Position numbers and translations under genes: made by a program. The notes beneath the pieces were generated by a model. That model was not told the origin of the DNA. It did no database searches and saw nothing but the letters and a program-made list of their open reading frames with translations. This document shows, piece after piece, positions 5,646-59,909 of a DNA stretch of 64,000 nt. The stretch's first letter is position 1. Every line of letters starts with the position of its first letter. Where the stretch lies: NCBI RefSeq assembly GCF_040412085.2, contig NZ_CP115921.1, positions 310,001 to 374,000 on the forward strand, read 5' to 3'. The DNA comes from Vibrio sp. CB1-14. Its GTDB lineage: Bacteria > Pseudomonadota > Gammaproteobacteria > Enterobacterales > Vibrionaceae.

Positions 5646-6728
5646 ATGATGCGCACTTCGAAAATACTAATTAAAGCATCAGTGTTAAGTGCTATAGCTC
5701 TAGTTTTAGGCTGTAGCGAGAAAAATGAAACAGACCTCATCGCTGTCGAGCCATTAACAGTCTCCACTACCGATGTCGAACTCACCCCTTCCTATCAAGT
5801 GAGGCGAGAATACGTAGGCACAGTCAAAGCCGGCCAACAAGCTAAACTTGGCTTTGAGCTAGCGGGTAAGATTGAGGTCATTTTGGTCGATGTTGGTGAT
5901 AGCGTTGCAAAAGGTACTGCTTTAGTGCGACTCAATACCGACCTTTTGAAAACGGAACTTGGTCAACTTAACGCCCAGGACAGAGAGGTGCGCGCGCAAT
6001 TAAAGCTCGTCAATGCCAACTTCAAACGTCAACAATCGCTAAAATCCAAAGGGTTTAGTGCGGATGCAGAAATCGATGCACTTACCAGCGAAAAAGGCGT
6101 CCTACAAGCGAATCTTGTCCGTTTGGAAGCGGCAATTCGCGCTAATAGACTGCGCATCGAGAAGTCGACTATTCTGGCTCCGTACGCGGGACGTATCGCT
6201 GAGCGTTACGTCTCGTTAGGTGACGTTGTCAATGTGGGTACCCCGACATTTGTACTGCTTGCAACAGAAGGGAAAGAGGCATTTATTGGCATCCCTGCTA
6301 AGCAGCTAAAGCGTGTTACCGCCCTCACCTCTCCTATCATCCGAGTCGATGACAACGACTATGCCGCAACACTGCTCAATCCGGGTGCGATGGTAGACAC
6401 CCAATCACGAAGCGTTGGGCTTAGATATCAATTACCCGAAAACCCCGACCTACTAGAAGGTCAACTGGCCTACCTTTCCTTTAATGAAACGGTGCAAGAC
6501 AGCGGTTACTGGGTTCCTCTTACTGCGCTTATCGATGGACTCCGTGGCGTCTGGAACGTATACGTGGTCGGAGAGGACAATAAAGTTGAAAGACGCAGCA
6601 TCAACGTGCTTTATGCTGATGGTCAGCGCGCATTTGTATCCGGGGCTATAGAAGATGGCGAAGCCATTATCGCCAGTGGATTGCATCGTGTAGTACCAGG
6701 GCAACCTGTTCAAATTGCGCAGCAATAA
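5646..6728 (+). CDS. RND efflux periplasmic adaptor (membrane fusion) lipoprotein
   Basis: A 360-residue HlyD/AcrA-type adaptor. The signal peptide ends in a lipobox (ALVLGCSE), so it is probably anchored in the inner membrane by lipid. The first half-lipoyl motif (GFELAGKIEVILVDVGDSVAKG), an alpha-helical hairpin (about residues 105-180) and the second lipoyl half (ILAPYAGRIAERYVSLGDVV) follow in the usual order. The gene is followed after eight bases by the RND transporter, with which it forms the inner-membrane part of a tripartite pump. No outer-membrane TolC-like gene is nearby, so TolC from elsewhere is presumably used. The inverted repeat at 5614-5640 covers its ribosome binding site. 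Confidence 0.9.
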   Translation: MMRTSKILIKASVLSAIALVLGCSEKNETDLIAVEPLTVSTTDVELTPSYQVRREYVGTVKAGQQAKLGFELAGKIEVILVDVGDSVAKGTALVRLNTDLLKTELGQLNAQDREVRAQLKLVNANFKRQQSLKSKGFSADAEIDALTSEKGVLQANLVRLEAAIRANRLRIEKSTILAPYAGRIAERYVSLGDVVNVGTPTFVLLATEGKEAFIGIPAKQLKRVTALTSPIIRVDDNDYAATLLNPGAMVDTQSRSVGLRYQLPENPDLLEGQLAYLSFNETVQDSGYWVPLTALIDGLRGVWNVYVVGEDNKVERRSINVLYADGQRAFVSGAIEDGEAIIASGLHRVVPGQPVQIAQQ

Positions 6729-6736
6729 GGATCATT

Positions 6737-9700
6737 ATGAAGCTTATTGATGCAATCACTAATACTCGTCTATTGCTACTGGTTACCGCACTATTGATCG
6801 TCAGCGGTCTGGCCGCGTTTACTTCATTGCCACGGGCAGAAGATCCCATCATTAGTAATCGCTTTGCCAACGTCACCACCAGTTTTCCTGGTGCGAGCGC
6901 CGATCGTGTGGAAACACTGGTCACTGAAGTCGTAGAAAACAAATTGCGCGAGCTAAGTGAAGTTAAGTTGCTCACATCCAGTTCGCGTCCTGGAGTTTCT
7001 ATCGTCACTATTGAGCTCAAAGACGAAGTGACAGAGCCAGAGCCTATCTGGTCAAAAGCCAGAGACAAACTTTCAGATGTTGAACCGTTACTTCCAGTTG
7101 GAACCGCACCACCCGATCTCGATAGCGATCATACCTATGCATTTACTGTCATCTCTTCACTGACTTGGGACGGTGCGGGCGAATCGGATATTTTGACACT
7201 AGGTCGTTATGGCAAGGAGCTAGCGAAGAGGCTACGCACTTTATCTGGCACCGAGTTTGTTGATGAATACGGCATGCCGAAAGAAGAGATCCAAGTAAAC
7301 CTACGAACCGCAGATACTGCAGCGTTTGGGGCATCGAGCATTCAAATAGGTGATAGCCTGCGTGGTGCTGATGCAAAGAACTCAGCAGGGCAACTAGTAA
7401 GCCAGTTCTCGCGATTCGGCTTGGAAATTGAATCTGAACTAGATTCGATTGAGCGAATCAAACAGGTGCCTCTTCTTGTCGCTAGGAACGGACATATCAT
7501 CCGTGTGGAAGACATTGCAACCGTCACTCGAAGCCAAAAAACACCAGAAAGTGAAGTGGCAATTATCGATGGCCATCCTGGTGTGATTATTGCTGCCCGC
7601 ATGGAGCCGGAACTTCGAGTTGATCAATGGACGGCACGAGCAAAAACGGTCATCAATCAGTTCGAACGCGACCTTCCAAGCAACATCAAAGTCACTCTGT
7701 TATTCGACCAACAAGGTTACACCACAACACGTTTGGTCGATTTAGGTAAAAGCCTGCTGATTGGCTTTTCTCTTATCCTCATCGTACTTTTTGTCACCCT
7801 TGGTGTACGCGCAGCCATACTCGTTGCGATAGCCCTGCCACTGACCTGTATGATCACCTTGTCATTGATGAAAATGACGGGTATTCCTATTAACCAAATG
7901 TCGGTAACCGGACTCATTGTCGCGCTGGGAATCATGGTCGATAACGCGGTGGTCATGGTGGATACAATTCAGAGCTATCGACTCAAAGGTCAAGCAAGGC
8001 TAGAAGCAACCATCAATGCTATCTCCCACTTATGGGTGCCGCTCCTTGGCTCCACACTGACCACCATTTTGGCATTTGCGCCTATCTTCTTAATGCCGGG
8101 CGCAACAGGAGAGTTTGTTGGCGCGATTGCCATTACCGTCTCGTTCTCGTTGGTTGGCTCTTATATTCTGTCGCATACCGTAATCGCAGGCTTTGCGACT
8201 ATGCTGCTGCCAAGCCATGCCACTGGCAACCATTGGTATAACAGCGGCCTACGCATTCCAGCGTTGACCCGTGGATTTAGCCAGTCAGTCAGACTAGCCA
8301 TCAAACATCCAGCTATTTCACTCGTCGCGGTTCTCGCCGTCCCGGTGACGGGCTATTGGAGTATATCTCAGCTAACCGAGCAATTCTTCCCACCCTCGGA
8401 TCGAGATATGTTTGAGGTTCAAGTATATCTGCCGCCACAAGCTAGCTTGTATGCGACGAAAGCGACGACTAAGGACGTCGATGCCATTATTCGCGACAAC
8501 CCGGGCGTTGAGCGTGTTGATTGGCTAGTGGGTGCTAACTTTCCTTCTTTCTATTACAACCTACAAGCAACGCAAAATAACGCACCGTATTTTTCACAGG
8601 CCATGGTTAAAATGGAAAACTTTCAGCAGGCTAATTCGCTAATACCGAATCTGCAAGCTCGCCTAAATCGCGAGCTTCCTGGAGCACAGATCTTAGTGAG
8701 AAAGCTCGAACAAGGCCCTCCGTTCCGCGCCCCTATTGAGCTTCGAGTCTATGGTAAAAACCTAAATACACTCAAAGCGATAGGTGAAGATATTCGTCTT
8801 ATTTTGGCTAATACACCTCACGTCACGCATACGCGAGAAACGCTTCAACCTGGCACGCCCAAAGTTTGGCTTAAAGTCGATGAAGACACCGCAAAGCTTA
8901 ATGGCATTTCACTCAATCAATTTGCCAATATGTTGCAGGCTACCATGGTAGGGCGAGAAACAGGCTCTGTGACGGAAGGCAGTGAGTCGATCCCAATACG
9001 TGTTCGAGTCGCCAATGAAGAGCGCGAAAATCTATCACACCTTGGTAACGTAAGATTGCCTATTGCTTCTGAGGTTTACACCACTGGCGTCAACGTATCG
9101 ACATTGGCCGAACTTGAGCTGACAACCAGCCGTGGTGCTATTACGCGTCGCAATGGTGAGCGGGTTAATACTATCGAAGGCTATATTCAAGCAGGCGTAT
9201 TACCACAAACAGTGTTAATCGACTTTCAACAAAGACTTGAATCTTATACTTTGCCCTCTGGCTACCACATCGATTTTGGTGGTGAATCCGCTGAGCGCGA
9301 TCGCTCGGTGGCATTGCTCATCTCCAATATCTCTGTCGTGGTGGTTTTGATGGTCTTAGTTGTGGTGATGTCGTTCAACTCATTTAGACTAAGCTCAATC
9401 ATTTTCATGGTGGCTGGCCTGGCCGGCGGTTTAGGTCTGTTGTCTGTGTGGATCTTTAACTACCCGTTTGGCTTTACCGTTATCATTGCGATGTTGGGTA
9501 TTATGGGACTCGCAATTAATGCCGCGATCGTCATACTCGCTGAGCTAAGAATGGATGAAAAAGCCGCCAGTGGTGATATCGACGCTTCTGTTGATGCCGT
9601 CATGTCGTGTACCCGTCACATTACCTCCACCACCATTACCACTGTGGGTGGCTTCATGCCTTTAATCATTGCAGGTGGTGGCTTTTGGCCACCTTTTGCA

Positions 9701-9796
9701 GTCGCCATTGCCGGTGGTACAGTACTGACAACACTATTATCGTTCTATTTTGTTCCTGTCATGTATCGCTTGATGGTGAAGAAAACAGCTAAGTAA
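6737..9796 (+). CDS. RND efflux transporter permease
   Basis: 1019 residues with the RND plan: one N-terminal transmembrane helix, a periplasmic loop, six helices, a second loop, and five more helices. It has AAGGA at a good distance. TM4 reads GIMVDNAVVMVD, so the second of the two AcrB proton-relay aspartates (407/408) is Asn (D402, N403 here), and the TM10 lysine region reads GLAINAAIVIL, without Lys. Such replacements occur in divergent RND subgroups, so activity is likely but substrates probably differ from AcrB. It forms an operon with the adaptor at 5646. Terminator-like hairpin at 9820-9846. Confidence 0.9.
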   Translation: MKLIDAITNTRLLLLVTALLIVSGLAAFTSLPRAEDPIISNRFANVTTSFPGASADRVETLVTEVVENKLRELSEVKLLTSSSRPGVSIVTIELKDEVTEPEPIWSKARDKLSDVEPLLPVGTAPPDLDSDHTYAFTVISSLTWDGAGESDILTLGRYGKELAKRLRTLSGTEFVDEYGMPKEEIQVNLRTADTAAFGASSIQIGDSLRGADAKNSAGQLVSQFSRFGLEIESELDSIERIKQVPLLVARNGHIIRVEDIATVTRSQKTPESEVAIIDGHPGVIIAARMEPELRVDQWTARAKTVINQFERDLPSNIKVTLLFDQQGYTTTRLVDLGKSLLIGFSLILIVLFVTLGVRAAILVAIALPLTCMITLSLMKMTGIPINQMSVTGLIVALGIMVDNAVVMVDTIQSYRLKGQARLEATINAISHLWVPLLGSTLTTILAFAPIFLMPGATGEFVGAIAITVSFSLVGSYILSHTVIAGFATMLLPSHATGNHWYNSGLRIPALTRGFSQSVRLAIKHPAISLVAVLAVPVTGYWSISQLTEQFFPPSDRDMFEVQVYLPPQASLYATKATTKDVDAIIRDNPGVERVDWLVGANFPSFYYNLQATQNNAPYFSQAMVKMENFQQANSLIPNLQARLNRELPGAQILVRKLEQGPPFRAPIELRVYGKNLNTLKAIGEDIRLILANTPHVTHTRETLQPGTPKVWLKVDEDTAKLNGISLNQFANMLQATMVGRETGSVTEGSESIPIRVRVANEERENLSHLGNVRLPIASEVYTTGVNVSTLAELELTTSRGAITRRNGERVNTIEGYIQAGVLPQTVLIDFQQRLESYTLPSGYHIDFGGESAERDRSVALLISNISVVVVLMVLVVVMSFNSFRLSSIIFMVAGLAGGLGLLSVWIFNYPFGFTVIIAMLGIMGLAINAAIVILAELRMDEKAASGDIDASVDAVMSCTRHITSTTITTVGGFMPLIIAGGGFWPPFAVAIAGGTVLTTLLSFYFVPVMYRLMVKKTAK

Positions 9797-10874: not shown

Positions 10875-12359
10875 ATGTGGAATAAACTAAATAAATCCAT
10901 GATGTTCTGCCAAATGATGTTTGGATTATCATTTTACGGCGTCATGGTCATCTTAACTCGATTCTTCCTCGAGAACCTCGATTACAGCGAAGCGGACACC
11001 ATGATGGTCGTCGGTGCCTTCTCATCTATCGGCCCACTGTTCGCCATTGCAGGTGGCTTTATCGCCGACAAATTTCTAGGCGCGTTTCGGTCTTTAACCA
11101 TCGCCTACCTTGGTTTTACCTGTGGTTATGCTCTGCTAGTTCTGGGCGCATCAACCGTTAACATTCCAATAAGTCTCGCTGGTATCGCACTGGCAAGTTA
11201 CGCACGTGGCTTAATGTCCCCATCTTACCCAAGCCTTTATAAGCGCACGTTCAAAAGCCAAGAAGACTTTGAAAATGGTTACCCTGTTAACTATTCAGTG
11301 AACAACATTGGCGCCCTACTTGGCCAGTACCTATTCCCAATGTTTGTTTTGGTGATTGGCTTCTATGGCAGTTTTGCGCTTTCCGGAATTTTGGCGTTTA
11401 CGGCTTTGTTTATGCTGTTCACATTCAGAAAACAGCTGCAAGGTATCGGTGCAGATATTGATAAAGCGCCAGTCTCTAGCGCTAACTGGATCAAGTTTGC
11501 GATTACTTCAGTGGCCATGATCGGCATGGTGTTCTTTATGTTCTCGAACATGGACATCGGTAAAAACATCGTTTACGCCATTGGTTTGACTGCTATTGGT
11601 TATTTCATCTCACTGATGTTAAAAGCCGAAAAAGCCGATGCACTTCGCATGGGAACCATCATTATTGTTACCGTTCTAACGACAGCGTTTTTTGTCTATT
11701 ACGGACAAATGATGACATCAATGACTATGGTGACCATCAACACCATGCGTGGTGATTTGTTTGGCATCATTCCAATCGCACCTGAAGCGTCAATGTCGAT
11801 GAACCCACTTTGGTGTATTGTTGCAGGACCTGTGATTGCAGCGACTTTCTCTGGACTAGAAAAACGCAACATCCACTTTACGACCGCCACCAAGATTGGC
11901 TTTTCATTCATCATGACAGCGATTGCGTTTGGTATTTTGGCGTTTGCAGTGAAGAATGTTGGCGAAGATGTGATTATCCGCCCTGAGGTGTTCCTCGTGA
12001 TTCACTTCTTCCAAGCGTTTGCTGAAGTCATTGTTGGTTCATTAGTTGTCGCCTTCATTCTATCGGTGGCACCGAAACACATTGAGAACTTCTCGGTAAG
12101 CCTATTTTCAGTGGCAATCGCTTTGTCTGGTATTGTTGGCGCTGTGTTCTCTACTTCAATCGCAGCAGAGAAAGGCCAAGAAATCACTCAAGAGTTCGTG
12201 CAAACCGTTTATGGTGACTACTTTGGTTTATTAACGATGTTAGCCGTTGTAATGGTGCTCGTTGCTCTGCTCTCATCCATTGCAATTCGCAAGATGCTTG
12301 CCGCAGCGGATGCTCATCAACCGAAAGAGCAAGTGGAACTGACGGAAGCGGAAAGTTAA
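10875..12359 (+). CDS. POT-family proton-dependent peptide transporter
   Basis: 494 residues and about 12-14 transmembrane helices. Family-like elements are SFYGVMVILTRFF (position of the POT ExxERFxYY helix, here without the ExxER charges), GGFIADKFLGAFRSLTIAY (loop 2-3) and YPVNYSVNNIGALLGQYLFP (helix 5 region). The missing ExxER motif suggests a divergent POT member with altered proton coupling or substrate. The ATG at 10875 has AAGGA upstream; the 43 residues of extra open frame before it look random. A terminator follows at 12370. Confidence 0.8.
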   Translation: MWNKLNKSMMFCQMMFGLSFYGVMVILTRFFLENLDYSEADTMMVVGAFSSIGPLFAIAGGFIADKFLGAFRSLTIAYLGFTCGYALLVLGASTVNIPISLAGIALASYARGLMSPSYPSLYKRTFKSQEDFENGYPVNYSVNNIGALLGQYLFPMFVLVIGFYGSFALSGILAFTALFMLFTFRKQLQGIGADIDKAPVSSANWIKFAITSVAMIGMVFFMFSNMDIGKNIVYAIGLTAIGYFISLMLKAEKADALRMGTIIIVTVLTTAFFVYYGQMMTSMTMVTINTMRGDLFGIIPIAPEASMSMNPLWCIVAGPVIAATFSGLEKRNIHFTTATKIGFSFIMTAIAFGILAFAVKNVGEDVIIRPEVFLVIHFFQAFAEVIVGSLVVAFILSVAPKHIENFSVSLFSVAIALSGIVGAVFSTSIAAEKGQEITQEFVQTVYGDYFGLLTMLAVVMVLVALLSSIAIRKMLAAADAHQPKEQVELTEAES

Positions 12360-12369
12360 CCATAGAAAA

Positions 12370-12401
12370 GGCTCGCTATTTTAAATTTAGCGAGCCTTTT
12401 T
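12370..12401 (+). terminator. Rho-independent terminator after the POT gene
   Basis: GGCTCGCTA (12370-12378) pairs with TAGCGAGCC (12388-12396), followed by TTTTT and preceded by AAAA, so it can also stop the convergent cytochrome operon read-through. Confidence 0.85.
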
Positions 12402-12430
12402 CTTCCCATTAAACCCAGATCAAAACAGGC

Positions 12431-14587
12431 TTAGTTGACGTTAATGTTGCCATCACGCTGGTCATACATTTCAGGCGTAACGTGTAAACCTCCTGAGTAG
12501 CCTGCTTTTTCCAACATTTCCCTCACTTGTTTCACATCCTCTTCCGTGACTGGCACTTCACGTGCCCCCAAATGGAGTCGAACGAAGGTGATCAGCTCTG
12601 CCAGCTTTTTATCCGACAACACATCTTCAAAGCTCGCCATCGGCATAAAATTTCGCTCTTTGTCTAAATACGTAGGCTGGAGCCCGCGAATAGTTACAGC
12701 GATCGTATTGAACGGATCACTGTGCATGATAATGCCATTATCTAGCAAAGTTGGCGCAATGGGATCTCGTCCTTTACCGTCTGGCCCATGACATGCGCCA
12801 CAAGTTTGGTTGTAGGTGGCATAGATATCTTCTGCATACGAGACTTCATCAAACCCTTTGGGCTCTAATCGTACCGCGGCATCACTGATCATATTATTGG
12901 AGTCACCCGCCAATAGGTAATAAGACATGGATTCAATATCTTCTCTGGTCATCAAACTCAAGCTGTTCTTGATTACATCGGCCATACCAGCAAACGCACT
13001 GCCCTTATCAGAGTGACCTGTATGGAGGAAATCAGTTAAAGAAGTCAGATCCCAACCATCGATAAACAGCTCTTCTGCCGTGATGTCCGGCGCATGCCAT
13101 CCGTCGATTAAATTGCCTTGGAATATACGATCATTATCGAGCGCTTGAGCGATATTTCTTGGCGTATGGCATTCCGAGCAGTGACCCAATCCAGCAACCC
13201 AGTATTTACCGCGCTGCCACTTTTCTACATCCTCCACTTTATTCTGTAGTTCGGCAGGCACTTCGTATTCCATTGGTTTGCGATCGGCAAAAACAATGTC
13301 CCAGGCAAGGAGACCTAAGCGAATGTTCGACGGGAACATCATTTGATTGGCGTCATTTCGTCTTGATACAGCACCAATAGATTGCATGTATTCCCACATA
13401 TCGCGCAAATCTTGCTCAGTAACATGTTGGTAGGAAGTAAACGGCATTGCCGGATATAGATACCCATGTCTCCCTTTACCATCAACGAGAGCGGCTCTAA
13501 AGTCCTCGTAGTCATAACTACCAATACCTTCTGTGACATGAGGCGTTATGTTAGTTGAGTAAATGGTGCCAAATGGCGTGACAAACGGCAGGCCACCAGC
13601 AAACGGCTCTCCCCCCTCGGCGCTATGACAAGCCACACAGTCTCCTGCATGAGCCAGATACTCGCCGCGTTCAACCGCCTCTGCATCCAGTGACGCAAGT
13701 CGGTTATCGTTTTGCAAGCGAGCGTGGGTGATATAAGCACCAATCGCGAGGATTTCATTTTGAGAGAGCTGCTCACCAAAGGCAGGCATCACATTATTTA
13801 ACCCTGCACGTATGGTGTGTTGGATCTCTTCTATGCTGCCTCCATGAAGCCAAATGTTGTCGGATAGATCAGGTACGCCCGTTTCCATATTCACTAAGCG
13901 ACCGTCGCCATGGCAAGAAGAGCACGTTTTCACGAACAAGTCTTTACCAAGCTCCACCTTAACCTCTGGCACATCAGTATGGCGTTGGTTGAGTGATGCG
14001 AGGTAATAAGAAATTTTAGCGATTTCATCTGGCCTAAGCACATCTACCCACCCGGGCATCGCACCATTTCTACCGAGTTCGATGGAATGGATGATAGCCT
14101 CATCGGATCCACCGTACATCCATTCATTGTCGATAAGGTTTGGGAAATGCTTCGCTCCCTGCGCGTTGTCGCGATGGCAAGCAGCACAATGGGTTTGGAA
14201 TAACATTTGCCCTGAAGAGACTATCTCAGTGTTGTCCGCCAACGAGATGAGAGACTGGTCTTGTACCAGGGAAAACTGAGCATCAAGGCTTGTCGTCGGC
14301 GCGCTGAGCTTGTCGTCGGCCTGATCGTAATTAAGCAACCCTGACCAACCGCTGATCCCCGGATATAAGATTAGATAGCCAAATGAGATAACGAACGCAG
14401 CAAAATAGGAAACAAACAATATCTTTGGCGGCGGCGCATCTTTTTCTTCAATGCCATCGAACGTGTCGAGCACTTTGTCTTTGTCCGCTTGATGATTATT
14501 GCGCCAATACTTAACAATCACAGCGACCATTAGAACGAAGAATACAAGGGTGCCCACGGCAGCCCATAGAGTCCAGAAACTACTCAT
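12431..14587 (-). CDS. CcoP-like cytochrome c fused to a triheme dehydrogenase-type cytochrome c (five hemes)
   Basis: 718 residues, far longer than a usual CcoP (about 300). Two N-terminal membrane helices (about 5-27 and 55-77) match CcoP. Then five CxxCH heme sites follow: 134-138, 222-226, 317-321, 470-474 and 596-600. The first two with their surroundings are CcoP-like. The last three lie in segments such as CVACHSAEGGEPFAGGLPF, TPFGTIYSTNITP and LYPAMPFTSY, which are characteristic of the cytochrome subunit of membrane alcohol/gluconate dehydrogenases (AdhB type). The start overlaps the ccoO-like stop (ATGA). I infer a subunit that can pass electrons directly from a periplasmic donor into a cbb3-type oxidase. 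No partner dehydrogenase is in the window. Confidence 0.9.
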   Translation of the reverse strand: MSSFWTLWAAVGTLVFFVLMVAVIVKYWRNNHQADKDKVLDTFDGIEEKDAPPPKILFVSYFAAFVISFGYLILYPGISGWSGLLNYDQADDKLSAPTTSLDAQFSLVQDQSLISLADNTEIVSSGQMLFQTHCAACHRDNAQGAKHFPNLIDNEWMYGGSDEAIIHSIELGRNGAMPGWVDVLRPDEIAKISYYLASLNQRHTDVPEVKVELGKDLFVKTCSSCHGDGRLVNMETGVPDLSDNIWLHGGSIEEIQHTIRAGLNNVMPAFGEQLSQNEILAIGAYITHARLQNDNRLASLDAEAVERGEYLAHAGDCVACHSAEGGEPFAGGLPFVTPFGTIYSTNITPHVTEGIGSYDYEDFRAALVDGKGRHGYLYPAMPFTSYQHVTEQDLRDMWEYMQSIGAVSRRNDANQMMFPSNIRLGLLAWDIVFADRKPMEYEVPAELQNKVEDVEKWQRGKYWVAGLGHCSECHTPRNIAQALDNDRIFQGNLIDGWHAPDITAEELFIDGWDLTSLTDFLHTGHSDKGSAFAGMADVIKNSLSLMTREDIESMSYYLLAGDSNNMISDAAVRLEPKGFDEVSYAEDIYATYNQTCGACHGPDGKGRDPIAPTLLDNGIIMHSDPFNTIAVTIRGLQPTYLDKERNFMPMASFEDVLSDKKLAELITFVRLHLGAREVPVTEEDVKQVREMLEKAGYSGGLHVTPEMYDQRDGNINVN

Positions 14588-15195
14588 TGCACACTCTCCT
14601 CAGCTGTATCGACACCAAGACTTTGCAAGTAGCGGATCAGCGCTTCACCCTTGGTTTTTCCTCTAACTTCTAACCTTGCGTTGGCAATTTCATCCTCAGA
14701 GTAAGGCACACCTAGTGCTTTCAAAGTTTGCATCTTTCCGGTTATGGTATCGCCAGACAGAACTTGTTCGAACAACCAAGGATAGGCAGGCATGATGGAC
14801 GTTGGGACAACGCGGCGTGGATCAATCAGGTGAATGGCATGCCACTGATCTGAATACTTTCTGCCTAGATTGGTGAGATCAGGTCCTGTGCGCTTCGAGC
14901 CCCATAGATTCGGAAACTCATAAATATCATCAGACTCTTGATTGGCGCGGCCATTGCGTTTTATCTCAGGTTCAAGTGGACGAACCATTTGCGTGTGGCA
15001 CACATGGCACCCCTCACTGATATAAATATCTCGCCCGGCCACCTCTATCGCCGTGAGCGGCTTCGCTTGGCTTTGCTGAACGAGCTCTGGGGTACGTAAT
15101 AAATTTGGAAGCACCCATACTAAAATGGAGAAAGACGCCACCACAGCGGTCGATACGATCAATATCACCAAAGACTTAGTAAAATCAGCATTCAT
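14584..15195 (-). CDS. ccoO: cbb3-type cytochrome c oxidase subunit II (CcoO-like, monoheme)
   Basis: 203 residues with one N-terminal membrane helix (about 8-30) and one heme c site, CHVCHTQMVRPL, typical of CcoO/FixO. FPNLWGSKRTGPDLTNLGRKYSDQWHAIHL also matches the family closely. It overlaps the CcoN-like gene by four bases upstream and the CcoP fusion downstream, so the three are translationally coupled. It is the electron-entry subunit next to CcoN. The window lacks ccoQ and the ccoGHIS assembly genes, so those must be supplied from elsewhere. Confidence 0.9.
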   Translation of the reverse strand: MNADFTKSLVILIVSTAVVASFSILVWVLPNLLRTPELVQQSQAKPLTAIEVAGRDIYISEGCHVCHTQMVRPLEPEIKRNGRANQESDDIYEFPNLWGSKRTGPDLTNLGRKYSDQWHAIHLIDPRRVVPTSIMPAYPWLFEQVLSGDTITGKMQTLKALGVPYSEDEIANARLEVRGKTKGEALIRYLQSLGVDTAEESVQ

Positions 15196-16623: not shown

Positions 16624-16968
16624 TCACTGCTTGTTGGCGTCAGAGCCTAATTTGGAATAGTAGTACGCGATGTCAGCGATATCTTGATCACTCAATGCGT
16701 CAGCTTGTTGTTGCATCAGAACAGCAAGGCCGCTACTGCGTTCTCTGGTTTGATAACTTCGAAGAGCGGTCATCAGATATCCCATCTTTTGACCTTGTAG
16801 GTTGGGGTAGGACTCAATGCTGGAGATCCCTTCGTCACCGTGACAGGTGGCACAGGTTTTGGCTTTCTCCATACCCACTTTGAATCGCTCATCTGCGAGC
16901 GTCTGAAATGAAAACAAGAGTGTTCCAGTGAAAAGACCCAGAATCACCCCGGAGGTAAATTTACCCAT
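16624..16968 (-). CDS. Periplasmic monoheme cytochrome c (c553/c4-like)
   Basis: 114 residues: signal peptide (SGVILGLFTGTLLFSFQTLA), then KTCATCHGDEG near residue 40 and an axial methionine candidate in LQGQKMGYLMTALRSYQ. SDQDIADIAYYYSKL at the C-terminus is typical of the c4/c553 fold. It is the first gene of the oxidase operon, with a good AAGGAAG upstream of the ATG at 16968. It is probably a soluble electron carrier feeding the oxidase. Confidence 0.85.
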   Translation of the reverse strand: MGKFTSGVILGLFTGTLLFSFQTLADERFKVGMEKAKTCATCHGDEGISSIESYPNLQGQKMGYLMTALRSYQTRERSSGLAVLMQQQADALSDQDIADIAYYYSKLGSDANKQ

Positions 16969-56849: not shown

Positions 56850-59800
56850 ATGTTTAAAATGTTCATAGAACGGCCTAAGTTTGCAATTGTTATTGCGCTT
56901 TTAATCTCTCTTATTGGAGCTATCGCTGCCGCCAACTCCCCAATAGGAAGGTACCCCGATGTTGCGCCGGTGACCGTAGAAGTCACCACGTTTATGGACG
57001 GTGCTAGTGCTGATGTTATGGCGAAATCTGTCGCTCCTGAAATTGAAAAACAGGTAAATGGAGTCGCTGGAATGGAGTATATGAAGTCCACCAGCGGTGC
57101 AGACGGCACCTATACACTGGAAGTCGTTTTTGAAAGTGGTACTGATTCAGACAAAGCCGTTAACTTGGTACAAAATCGCATCAATCTTGCCCTTCCGGAG
57201 CTACCCGGCGATGTGATGCGAAATGGCGTTAAAGTGGAGAAGCTCTCTAATGGCTTAATGCTCGGCATCTCAATTACTGACCCGTCTGGCGACGCATCGG
57301 CTATCGAGATCAGCGCGTTTGCAGGCGGCCCGCTAAAAGAGAGAATTCAGCGTATCAACGGCGTGTCAAAAGTCGATGTACTTGGTGAAAAGAAATACTC
57401 GATTCGTGTTTGGCTCAACCCGAACAAAATGAAGCATTACTCGATCAATGTCGATGAAATCAATAATGCTATCGCCACCCAAAATAAGATTGCCTCCGCA
57501 GGCAGCGTGGTCAACGATAAGTTTGAATTCCCAATTACCGTCGAGGGTGGCTTATCCTCCCCGGAAGAGTTCGGCAACATCGTCGTTCGCTCAGACGAGC
57601 TGGGAAAAACCATCTTCTTAAGAGACATCGCAGAAATCGAGCTAGGCAGCGAAATCTATACCGCCAATGCTTATGGTGAAAACGCTAACGGTGCAGTGCT
57701 GTTCATCTACAAGACTCCAGAAGCCAACGCAATGGATGTAGCCTCCGGCATTAAATCCCTTCTACAACAGCCTAGCGATTACCAAATCAAAACCGTCTAC
57801 GATGCTACCACCTTTATTGATGGCGCCATTTATAGCGTTGTAGAAACCTTAGTCCTCGCGGTTGCCATTGTTTCCTTGGTCACGCTCCTTTTTATGCAAA
57901 ATTTTCGATTGACCTTGATTACAGTAACAGCGATTCCAGTTTCTCTTATTGGCACGTTTGCGGTCATGAGCGGACTTGGTATTCAAATCAACATCATCTC
58001 CATGTTTGGTCTGGTGATGGCGATTGGTATTGTTGTGGATGCCGCTATTATCGTTATTGAAAACGCCGAACACCAACTCCACGAACATCCAGAGATGACG
58101 GTTAAGCAGGCAATATCTAAAGCATTAGATATCACCTTCTCTCCGATTGTCGCTTCTATGCTCGTGTTGCTCGCCGTTTTTACTCCTTCACTATTTATTC
58201 CAGGCATGGCCGGCACTATCTATTCTGAGTTTGGCATCGTCCTATGTGCCTCTGTGGTAGTTTCAACCTTAGTGGCGCTGACATTGACTCCCGCGCTTTG
58301 TGCACTGTTTATGAAGCCGCCGAAGAAAAATGCCATCGCAAAGTCCGTTGAATGGGTTATTACACAGAAAATCCGAGCGTTTACCGGTCTAGCATGGACC
58401 GCAACTCGCTTACCAATACTGACCATCGCGCTGCTAGTTGGTGGCCTCTATCTATCGGTAGAGCGAGGCGCGAGCTTACCAACCGGTCTCCTACCAGAAG
58501 AAGATACTAGCGCTATCTTTGTGGTTGGAAGCTTCCCACAAGGCACGGCATTGACACAAACCGACCAATATCTAGCCAATCTGACCAAGCAGCTCAATGC
58601 GCTACCTGGCGTTTCCACCAGTGTTGAGGCATCTGGATTTAATCTGTTAACTGGAACGGCAGAAATGAGCAGTTTCATGATGTTAGTGTCGCTTGATGAT
58701 ATGCAAAGCCGAACGGCTACAGACGTCGCTATCACAGACCAAGTGAATGCCGTTTTAGCTGAAAATACCGAGATCCAAGCCTTTGCTTTTAAACCACCTG
58801 TCATTCCTGAGCTAGGTATGGTCGATGGCGTAAACTTCGTTTTGCTTGCACCGGAATTAACACCCAGTGAACTTTACAAGCTCACAATGGACTTTAACAC
58901 ACGCTTAATGGAAGATAAGCGAATTGGCCTAGCGATGGCTCAGTTCGAAGTGACAAAACCTTCCATGAAACTCAATATCAAGCGTGACGACTTGCTAAAA
59001 TATGGTGTTACGTTCTCGGATGTGGTCGAAGGCATGCAAACCCACTTTGGCGGTATGTACATCAACACATTCAATATGGGTGGACGAAACTACAAGGTGA
59101 TGGTGCAAAATGACCCCAATTATCGATTGGACCCGAAGGCACTGAAACAAACAGGGCTGTCTAAACCAAATGGCAAACGTATCACCTACGACAAGCTCTT
59201 CGATGTAGAACAAATCAAAGTCCCTAATTTCATTACTCGTTATAACGCTGAGCAAGGGGTATTCATCGACGTCATTCCAACCGTCGCTACGGGTCAAGCT
59301 ATCCAGGCGATACAAGAGCTTGCTGAAGAGTTTGGTTATCGTGTTGAGTTCACCGGCGCAGCAAAAGAAGAAGTCAATGCGGGCAATACGGTTGCCCTAG
59401 TCATGGGGCTTGCTCTGCTAGTCACCTTCTTAGTGTTAGTCGCGCAGTATGAGTCTTGGCTGATCCCTCTCGCGATTATGTTGACCGTTCCAACAGCGGT
59501 TATCGGTATCGTTGAAGGCGTGATTCATATTGGTGGCAACATCAACATTCTTACCCAGCTATCGGCCATCTTGCTGATAGGTATGACGGTTCGAAACGCG
59601 ATTCTTATTGTCGAGTTCGCTAAAACGCTGCGCGATGACGGTGAACTAACGATTAAGCAAGCGGCGGTTCAAGCACTCCGCTTGCGTGCTCGCGCAGTGT
59701 TTATGACCGCGTTCTCGTTCGGGGTTGGATTGATACCCTTAATGCTGGCGAACGCTGTCGGCTCTGGCGGCCAAAAAGCTCTTGGTTGGGCGTCATTTGG

Positions 59801-59909
59801 TGGCATAGTCACCGCTACTTTTATTGGGTGTATTATGGCAAGTGTATTTTTTGTGGTAATTCAACAAACTCGAGAACTTTTCAAACCTGCTACCACAGCC
59901 CAAGTATAA
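56850..59909 (+). CDS. Orphan RND-family transporter with altered proton-relay residues
   Basis: 1019 residues with the full RND plan. The first helix starts FIERPKFAIVIALLISLIGAIA, as in AcrB-like HAE1 pumps. In TM4 the aspartate pair reads GIVVDAAIIVIE (D397 and A398), where AcrB has Asp-Asp; in TM10 GMTVRNAILIVEFAK carries Arg915 in place of Lys940. No adaptor or outer-membrane channel gene is adjacent, and the ribosome binding site is weak (GGTAG). It may work with an adaptor encoded elsewhere, or with different ion coupling. Terminator at 59920. Confidence 0.9.
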   Translation: MFKMFIERPKFAIVIALLISLIGAIAAANSPIGRYPDVAPVTVEVTTFMDGASADVMAKSVAPEIEKQVNGVAGMEYMKSTSGADGTYTLEVVFESGTDSDKAVNLVQNRINLALPELPGDVMRNGVKVEKLSNGLMLGISITDPSGDASAIEISAFAGGPLKERIQRINGVSKVDVLGEKKYSIRVWLNPNKMKHYSINVDEINNAIATQNKIASAGSVVNDKFEFPITVEGGLSSPEEFGNIVVRSDELGKTIFLRDIAEIELGSEIYTANAYGENANGAVLFIYKTPEANAMDVASGIKSLLQQPSDYQIKTVYDATTFIDGAIYSVVETLVLAVAIVSLVTLLFMQNFRLTLITVTAIPVSLIGTFAVMSGLGIQINIISMFGLVMAIGIVVDAAIIVIENAEHQLHEHPEMTVKQAISKALDITFSPIVASMLVLLAVFTPSLFIPGMAGTIYSEFGIVLCASVVVSTLVALTLTPALCALFMKPPKKNAIAKSVEWVITQKIRAFTGLAWTATRLPILTIALLVGGLYLSVERGASLPTGLLPEEDTSAIFVVGSFPQGTALTQTDQYLANLTKQLNALPGVSTSVEASGFNLLTGTAEMSSFMMLVSLDDMQSRTATDVAITDQVNAVLAENTEIQAFAFKPPVIPELGMVDGVNFVLLAPELTPSELYKLTMDFNTRLMEDKRIGLAMAQFEVTKPSMKLNIKRDDLLKYGVTFSDVVEGMQTHFGGMYINTFNMGGRNYKVMVQNDPNYRLDPKALKQTGLSKPNGKRITYDKLFDVEQIKVPNFITRYNAEQGVFIDVIPTVATGQAIQAIQELAEEFGYRVEFTGAAKEEVNAGNTVALVMGLALLVTFLVLVAQYESWLIPLAIMLTVPTAVIGIVEGVIHIGGNINILTQLSAILLIGMTVRNAILIVEFAKTLRDDGELTIKQAAVQALRLRARAVFMTAFSFGVGLIPLMLANAVGSGGQKALGWASFGGIVTATFIGCIMASVFFVVIQQTRELFKPATTAQV

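Follow-up and report, generated by a model that had tools for sequence, protein, structure and literature searches.

What feeds electrons to a cbb3 oxidase whose CcoP subunit runs on into a dehydrogenase-type cytochrome? A gene of this kind lies within a 64,000-nucleotide stretch of Vibrio sp. CB1-14 DNA (hereafter the window). An earlier note had read it as a CcoP-like subunit fused to a triheme dehydrogenase cytochrome, and had proposed that it could couple a periplasmic dehydrogenase, the known donors of such cytochromes being quinoproteins or flavoproteins, directly to oxygen reduction, bypassing the quinone pool and the bc1 complex. The fusion and its operon with ccoN and ccoO are upheld by the analysis reported here; the bc1-bypassing coupling to those two dehydrogenase types is not.

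A pentaheme CcoP fusion

The gene is a single 718-residue frame with an ATG start, and all five of its CxxCH motifs lie exactly where the earlier note had placed them (Table 1). The two N-terminal membrane helices claimed there were also recovered, at residues 2-31 and 55-74 in the better of two structure models. In an NCBIfam profile search, residues 42-287 exceed the ccoP cut-off (TIGR00782, 196.7 bits against 179.95), and comparison with the PDB matched this half to the solved CcoP chains 8smr_G, 8snh_G, and 3mk7_C (E 6e-44 to 4e-40), in agreement with a CcoP-like reading of the first two heme domains. Residues 300-689 match solved triheme dehydrogenase cytochromes, namely those of glucose dehydrogenase (8hdd_B, E 3e-59), alcohol dehydrogenase (8gy2_B), fructose dehydrogenase (7w2j_C), and aldehyde dehydrogenase (8gy3_A), and carry three CxxCH motifs with distal Met partners in the order and fold of the family. 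The last three hemes are thus AdhB-like, and a C-terminal half made of repeated CcoP, the outcome that the note had named as fatal to its reading, is ruled out.

Table 1. Window coordinates of the cassette genes and of regions within the fusion protein
Feature	Position	Strand	Evidence or detail
Small monoheme cytochrome c, c554/c4 family, 114 aa, first cassette gene	16624..16968	(-)	PDB match to 2zzs
ccoN, cbb3-type oxidase catalytic subunit I, 473 aa	15192..16613	(-)	TIGR00780
ccoO, 203-aa monoheme subunit II; single CxxCH, residue 63	14584..15195	(-)	PF02433
ccoP::adhB fusion, pentaheme subunit, 718 aa	12431..14587	(-)	ORF with ATG start; profile and structure-database matches
CcoP diheme region, residues 113-292; CxxCH 134, 222; Met 177, 267	13712..14251	(-)	
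Junction between halves, residues 276-314	13646..13762	(-)	Helices 276-298 and 302-314; block mean pLDDT 92-98
Triheme AdhB-like cytochrome domain, residues 300-690; CxxCH 317, 470, 596; Met 381, 535, 650	12518..13690	(-)	

Conservation extends over both halves. Among 26 aligned members, the His and Met ligands of all five hemes are invariant, as is Met 648, and mean identity to the window copy is 0.74 for the AdhB half versus 0.57-0.71 for the CcoP half. Because the AdhB half is conserved no less than the CcoP half, it is not a relic. AdhB-type cytochromes have their own export signal and C-terminal anchors, as the title of 9jqa partly suggests. The AdhB half of the fusion begins within CcoP and has no export signal of its own; no C-terminal membrane anchor was found, and a sequence scan detected no hydrophobic stretch at the C-terminus or elsewhere apart from the two N-terminal helices.

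The first of the two structure models, built from 18 sequences, was of poor quality, with a mean pLDDT of 58.7. The second, from 135 sequences, was good, with the reservation that the 41 CcoP rows of its alignment are placed over AdhB hemes two and three. Compared with solved structures, the second model matched CcoP and AdhB-type folds. It predicts that the two halves meet at a rigid junction without a long flexible linker, and its tail past about residue 695 is of low confidence.

A second cbb3 oxidase

On the minus strand, the small c554/c4-like cytochrome is followed by ccoN, ccoO, and finally the fusion. Overlaps of 4 bases join ccoN to ccoO and ccoO to the fusion, and the small cytochrome gene stops 10 bases ahead of ccoN, a spacing that makes the four genes look like one operon. 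The ccoO/fusion overlap leaves no space for ccoQ, which is usual between ccoO and ccoP, though not defining for cbb3 oxidases, and is absent here. CcoN scores 594.8 bits against the TIGR00780 cut-off of 583.15 and keeps all eight checked P. stutzeri residues (ligands of heme b, heme b3, and CuB, together with a Tyr and a Glu), their positions given in what we take to be P. stutzeri CcoN numbering. CcoO matches FixO (PF02433, 7.9e-60) and lies above the NF011055 cut-off (228.6 versus 218) and just under that of TIGR00781 (196.0 versus 200.65).

The small cytochrome has a signal-like N-terminal stretch, read by eye. Its closest solved relative is cytochrome c554 (2zzs, E 4e-24), presumably from V. 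parahaemolyticus, followed by c552 (1cno) and cytochromes c4; these relatives include the cytochrome c4 of 8smr and 8snh, entries for the P. aeruginosa bc1-cbb3 supercomplex. Cytochrome c4 of V. cholerae is said to be a natural cbb3 donor. A tblastn search placed the small cytochrome upstream of ccoN at all 52 loci, although several of these represent one genome counted twice.

Elsewhere in the window genome, a canonical cco cluster with ccoN, ccoO, a diheme ccoP, and further genes lies on the other large contig (G000:C1), which makes the fusion locus a second cbb3 oxidase. A CtaD-type oxidase is also encoded (G000:C2), with a heme-c-bearing gene directly before it. On its gene content and ligand positions, the locus is a second, self-contained C-type (cbb3) heme-copper oxidase whose activity is predicted.

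The two nearest neighbors of the window cassette have no relation to it; they encode a PAS-GGDEF-EAL protein and a transporter of the peptide-permease kind. Across the window, FNR-type boxes did not exceed chance (2 found, 4.0 expected), and patterns for FNR, ArcA, CRP, and Fur were absent from 43 distinct regions upstream of the cassette. A GTAAC dyad occurs in the window copy only, and no 5-base dyad recurred in more than 3 of these 43 regions. Between positions 12000 and 17600, promoter-like matches were fewer than in shuffles (2 versus 7.2) and terminator-like matches more numerous (11 versus 5.4), every one of the latter being intragenic; the interpretation draws on neither set. Two plus-strand frames of equal length (1019 aa) occur elsewhere in the window, at 6737-9796 and 56850-59909; the former looks RND efflux pump-like by eye and adjoins a membrane fusion protein at 5646-6728.

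Distribution and genomic surroundings

How often the fusion occurs in other Vibrio had been posed as a check by the earlier note; of the 197 Vibrionaceae genomes sampled, 61 have it. The match is uninterrupted, with no stop reported inside, in 58 of the 61; a single TGA falls inside the matched region or at its end in G030 and in one piece of G060, and the match in G115 is split over frames. Nearly all of the 120 best listed homologues are full-length (~718 aa), which together with the count among Vibrionaceae genomes rules out a chimera or assembly artefact. Within a thin class-wide sample of 369 genomes, only the window genome gave a match across both halves among the matches listed. Named loci numbered at least 31, from Vibrio, Photobacterium, Aliivibrio, Shewanella, and one Microbulbifer (one genome per species; best 80 matches), and Psychromonas was among the homologues in a database search listing. 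The closest named copy among the matches listed, from Vibrio maritimus JCM 19240, is 97% identical and split: the fusion lies in two frames of 180 and 536 aa (L102:10001-12153) beside a CcoN of 400 aa, reflecting either draft errors or decay. Databases call the homologues "c-type cytochrome," "putative diheme cytochrome c-553," or "cbb3-type cytochrome c oxidase subunit III," and, twice among the matches listed, "thiosulfate dehydrogenase."

A second, canonical CcoN was found in 48 of the 61 fusion genomes, and the CcoN of the cassette was the sole CcoN found in the other 13. CtaD was found in 12 of these 13; G029 yielded neither. The earlier note had held that its reading would fail if the fusion were common in ordinary cbb3 operons. 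It is common in Vibrionaceae, but it sits in a cbb3 operon apart from the ordinary ccoNOQP one. G110 has a further compact set of ccoN and ccoO, whose CcoP is tetraheme and 484 aa long (L030:15597-19066), at ~8 kb from its pentaheme cassette, and G011 has a ccoN that scores like the one in this tetraheme set.

The surroundings of the cassette vary widely between loci. Across the window with 20 fetched loci and the 31 named loci (partly the same genomes), clustering of neighbors and comparison with a few reference enzymes revealed no dehydrogenase gene conserved beside the cassette; no reductase gene was conserved there either. In one Photobacterium group (L106, L107, L112, L042, and L043), transporter-like (531-534 aa) and glyoxalase-like (146-152 aa) genes come after the cassette on its strand, and ABC-transporter-like genes lie upstream; names assigned by eye include no dehydrogenase.

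Ancestry of the triheme arm

The origin of the triheme arm was approached through a tree of 83 AdhB-type sequences taken from similarity searches, with molybdenum-type and GMC partners assigned by gene neighborhood alone. A branch with support of 100/99 places the AdhB halves of the fusions (15 rows plus the split copy) together with 11 cytochromes from molybdenum-hydroxylase operons; cytochromes beside GMC flavoproteins, beside the other molybdenum type, and without an assigned partner fall on the opposite side. The tree is midpoint-rooted, some of its long branches meet, and the molybdenum group is weakly resolved (66/56). Signature columns are mixed, the fusion keeping 9 of the 17 molybdenum-type columns and 7 of the 11 GMC-type ones while 27 are specific to it, so the columns do not settle the ancestry, for which the tree, within the limits just given, is the basis. 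These comparisons are best explained if the arm arose from the subunit that transfers electrons in a molybdenum hydroxylase of the periplasmic type.

The molybdenum hydroxylases of the grouped operons are 937-964 aa long. In G131, one such operon (L041:11885-17586) is divergent from the pentaheme cassette and encodes a molybdenum subunit, a 2Fe-2S subunit, a triheme cytochrome, and an XdhC-like protein. Its molybdenum subunit has a Tat-like signal at the N-terminus (by eye) and matches PF02738 and PF20256, with PDB matches to 4-hydroxybenzoyl-CoA reductase and to aldehyde and xanthine oxidoreductases. At each of the nine Vibrionaceae loci read, the molybdenum enzyme comes with an AdhB-type cytochrome of its own.

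Triheme cytochromes of the AdhB type are also encoded by stand-alone genes near genes for heme-copper oxidase subunit I (PF00115) in Roseateles, Neorhizobium, and Massilia (L153:9674-14366; L129 and L123, around 12000-13600). The subunit I in L153 has a ba3-type enzyme as its best PDB match, and a diheme cytochrome c gene then follows. These loci tie the AdhB-type cytochromes to terminal oxidases a second time.

Candidate electron donors

The dehydrogenases that classically pair with AdhB-type cytochromes are mostly missing from fusion genomes. PF13618, which marks the flavin dehydrogenases, was found in 0 of 61 by a profile search that detected the known positive G157, ruling out this type as a general partner. 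The 950-aa molybdenum hydroxylase (E <= 1e-60) is present in 9 of 61 fusion genomes versus 6 of 136 others (p 0.018, kinship ignored); with this reach, it too is ruled out as a general partner. Matches to PF20256 were absent from 26 fusion genomes, single and of xanthine-dehydrogenase size in 20, and at least two in 15. The window genome, the one in which the neighbors of such a single match were read, contains one MoCoBD_2 protein, within an XdhABC-like cluster without an export signal, and one GMC protein, which is betA-like, lacks an export signal (by eye), and is followed by a betaine-type binding protein. No PQQ (quinoprotein) alcohol dehydrogenase scored above the cut-off in that genome; two sub-threshold matches fall in one 386-aa frame, which we take to be BamB. 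Regarding the co-occurring dehydrogenases that the earlier note had suggested looking for, then, none is conserved beside the cassette in the loci compared.

The bc1 complex gives the opposite picture. Its Rieske marker, TIGR01416, was detected in 61 of 61 fusion genomes and in 190 of 197 overall, and all 7 Rieske-less genomes lack the fusion (p 0.10). Because bc1 is near-universal in Vibrionaceae, its presence says little about how the fusion is fed. The direct quinoprotein or flavoprotein coupling of the earlier note is not supported in that form: PF13618 is missing throughout, the Rieske marker is always present, and the nearest stand-alone kin of the arm with a known neighborhood lie in molybdenum-hydroxylase operons.

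Function of the extra hemes

The likeliest reading is an oxidase that draws on the periplasmic cytochrome pool and has the arm as one more inlet. CcoN with its binuclear site, the monoheme CcoO, the pentaheme CcoP, and the c554/c4-like cytochrome of the cassette would form one oxidase, in which rigid joining of the triheme half to CcoP would create a single chain of five low-spin hemes. Electrons would enter at the triheme arm, at CcoP, or at both, and would then pass through CcoO to heme b and the heme b3-CuB site, where O2 would be reduced. We tentatively take the main donor of this five-heme CcoP oxidase to be the periplasmic c-type cytochrome pool, and not a dedicated dehydrogenase, by a route that may run from bc1 through the cassette cytochrome to the arm. 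This reading draws on the small cytochrome, which stays with ccoN at all 52 loci while the flanks vary, on the Rieske distribution, and on the scarcity of classical partners. It also draws on the genomes in which the cassette CcoN is the sole CcoN and on G029, where CtaD is missing as well. We dropped these 13 genomes as proof of feeding by bc1 since CtaD in 12 of them leaves the argument on G029, a draft genome of 160 contigs.

Several points weigh against a pool-fed oxidase. CtaD provides another exit for bc1 electrons in those 12 genomes, and the molybdenum hydroxylase is over-represented among fusion genomes and adjoins the cassette in L041. Furthermore, a monoheme donor can dock on a plain diheme CcoP, so pool feeding by itself leaves the strong conservation of the arm unexplained.

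The arm may instead dock a periplasmic dehydrogenase, of an unrecognized class or encoded at a distance, that sends electrons to O2 without quinone or bc1. We consider this dedicated inlet the less likely alternative, although the arm is strongly conserved, is homologous over its full length to electron-transfer subunits of such enzymes, and has its kin in the operons of a molybdenum hydroxylase that is enriched among fusion genomes and once lies beside the cassette. Opposing it are the lack, in the loci compared, of a conserved dehydrogenase next to the cassette and the absence of the molybdenum hydroxylase from 52, of PF20256 from 26, and of PF13618 from all 61 fusion genomes. The window genome yields none of the three classes in exported form, and the molybdenum enzyme already has an AdhB-type cytochrome of its own in the nine Vibrionaceae loci. 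In its fullest version, a dehydrogenase-to-oxygen wire in about one-third of sampled Vibrionaceae species would join a donor class new to AdhB-type cytochromes to a high-affinity cbb3 site, skipping the quinone pool and bc1, which we judge slightly more doubtful still.

That the extra hemes form an outlet, through which CcoP would supply a reductase in the periplasm, is improbable. By analogy, the third heme of neisserial CcoP passes electrons to the nitrite reductase NirK, a direct precedent (PMC2924362) and a warning that hemes added to CcoP may serve as an outlet. Against this, the loci compared share no reductase gene next to the cassette, and the homologues of the arm are proteins that accept electrons from dehydrogenases, unlike the c5-derived Neisseria domain described in that paper. 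Similarly improbable is an arm that only helps structure or docking and has no essential part in redox chemistry; it would fit a donor that has so far escaped identification, but the three heme sites of the arm and their Met partners are invariant in all 26 aligned members. Least probable is a quinol oxidase independent of bc1, its arm taking electrons from membrane ubiquinol as AdhB-type cytochromes exchange them with ubiquinone in acetic acid bacteria, given the Rieske marker in every fusion genome, the low-confidence tail, and the want of a hydrophobic stretch outside the two N-terminal helices.

Relation to known systems

With canonical cbb3 CcoNO(Q)P oxidases (3mk7, 8smr, 8snh, and 6xkw), the cassette shares the CcoN ligand positions, CcoO, FixP_N, and a diheme CcoP; it differs in the three extra CcoP hemes, the missing ccoQ, and a c554/c4-like cytochrome of its own as first gene. 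The arm has the full-length fold and the three CxxCH motifs with Met partners of AdhB-type subunits from alcohol (8gy2_B), aldehyde (8gy3_A), fructose (7w2j_C and 8jej_C), and glucose (8hdd_B) dehydrogenases, but has CcoP at its N-terminus and no conserved catalytic dehydrogenase subunit nearby. As that defining partner was looked for and not found, we class the locus as a cbb3 variant and leave it outside the dehydrogenase-cytochrome family.

Three other CcoP proteins have C-terminal cytochrome extensions. The neisserial tri-heme CcoP likewise adds heme at the C-terminus of a cbb3 CcoP; as described for it (PMC2924362), this is a single c5-derived heme on a low-complexity linker that serves nitrite reduction, whereas the present extension is a 390-residue AdhB-type domain, not c5-derived, with three hemes and a predicted rigid junction. 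An engineered R. capsulatus bc1-CcoP-cy fusion carries a carrier cytochrome at the CcoP C-terminus in an active complex, which indicates that such an attachment is compatible with activity; unlike the natural fusion, it has one cytochrome domain on a 69-residue linker (PMC7876108). The tetraheme CcoP of L030 (17612-19066, 484 aa) is also a natural C-terminal extension in a compact ccoN-ccoO-ccoP set, with two c4/PdsA-like hemes in place of AdhB-type ones. No description of a CcoP-AdhB fusion was found in titles and abstract openings of the open-licence literature.

Natural additions to cbb3 oxidases reveal the donors that feed them, and here a dehydrogenase cytochrome has been made a permanent part of the oxidase. 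The proximity of AdhB-type cytochrome and ba3-type oxidase genes in Roseateles, Massilia, and Neorhizobium makes the question wider than Vibrio. A dehydrogenase donor would make the fusion a new respiratory shortcut; with the cytochrome pool as donor, a dehydrogenase subunit would have been recruited as an antenna for the oxidase.
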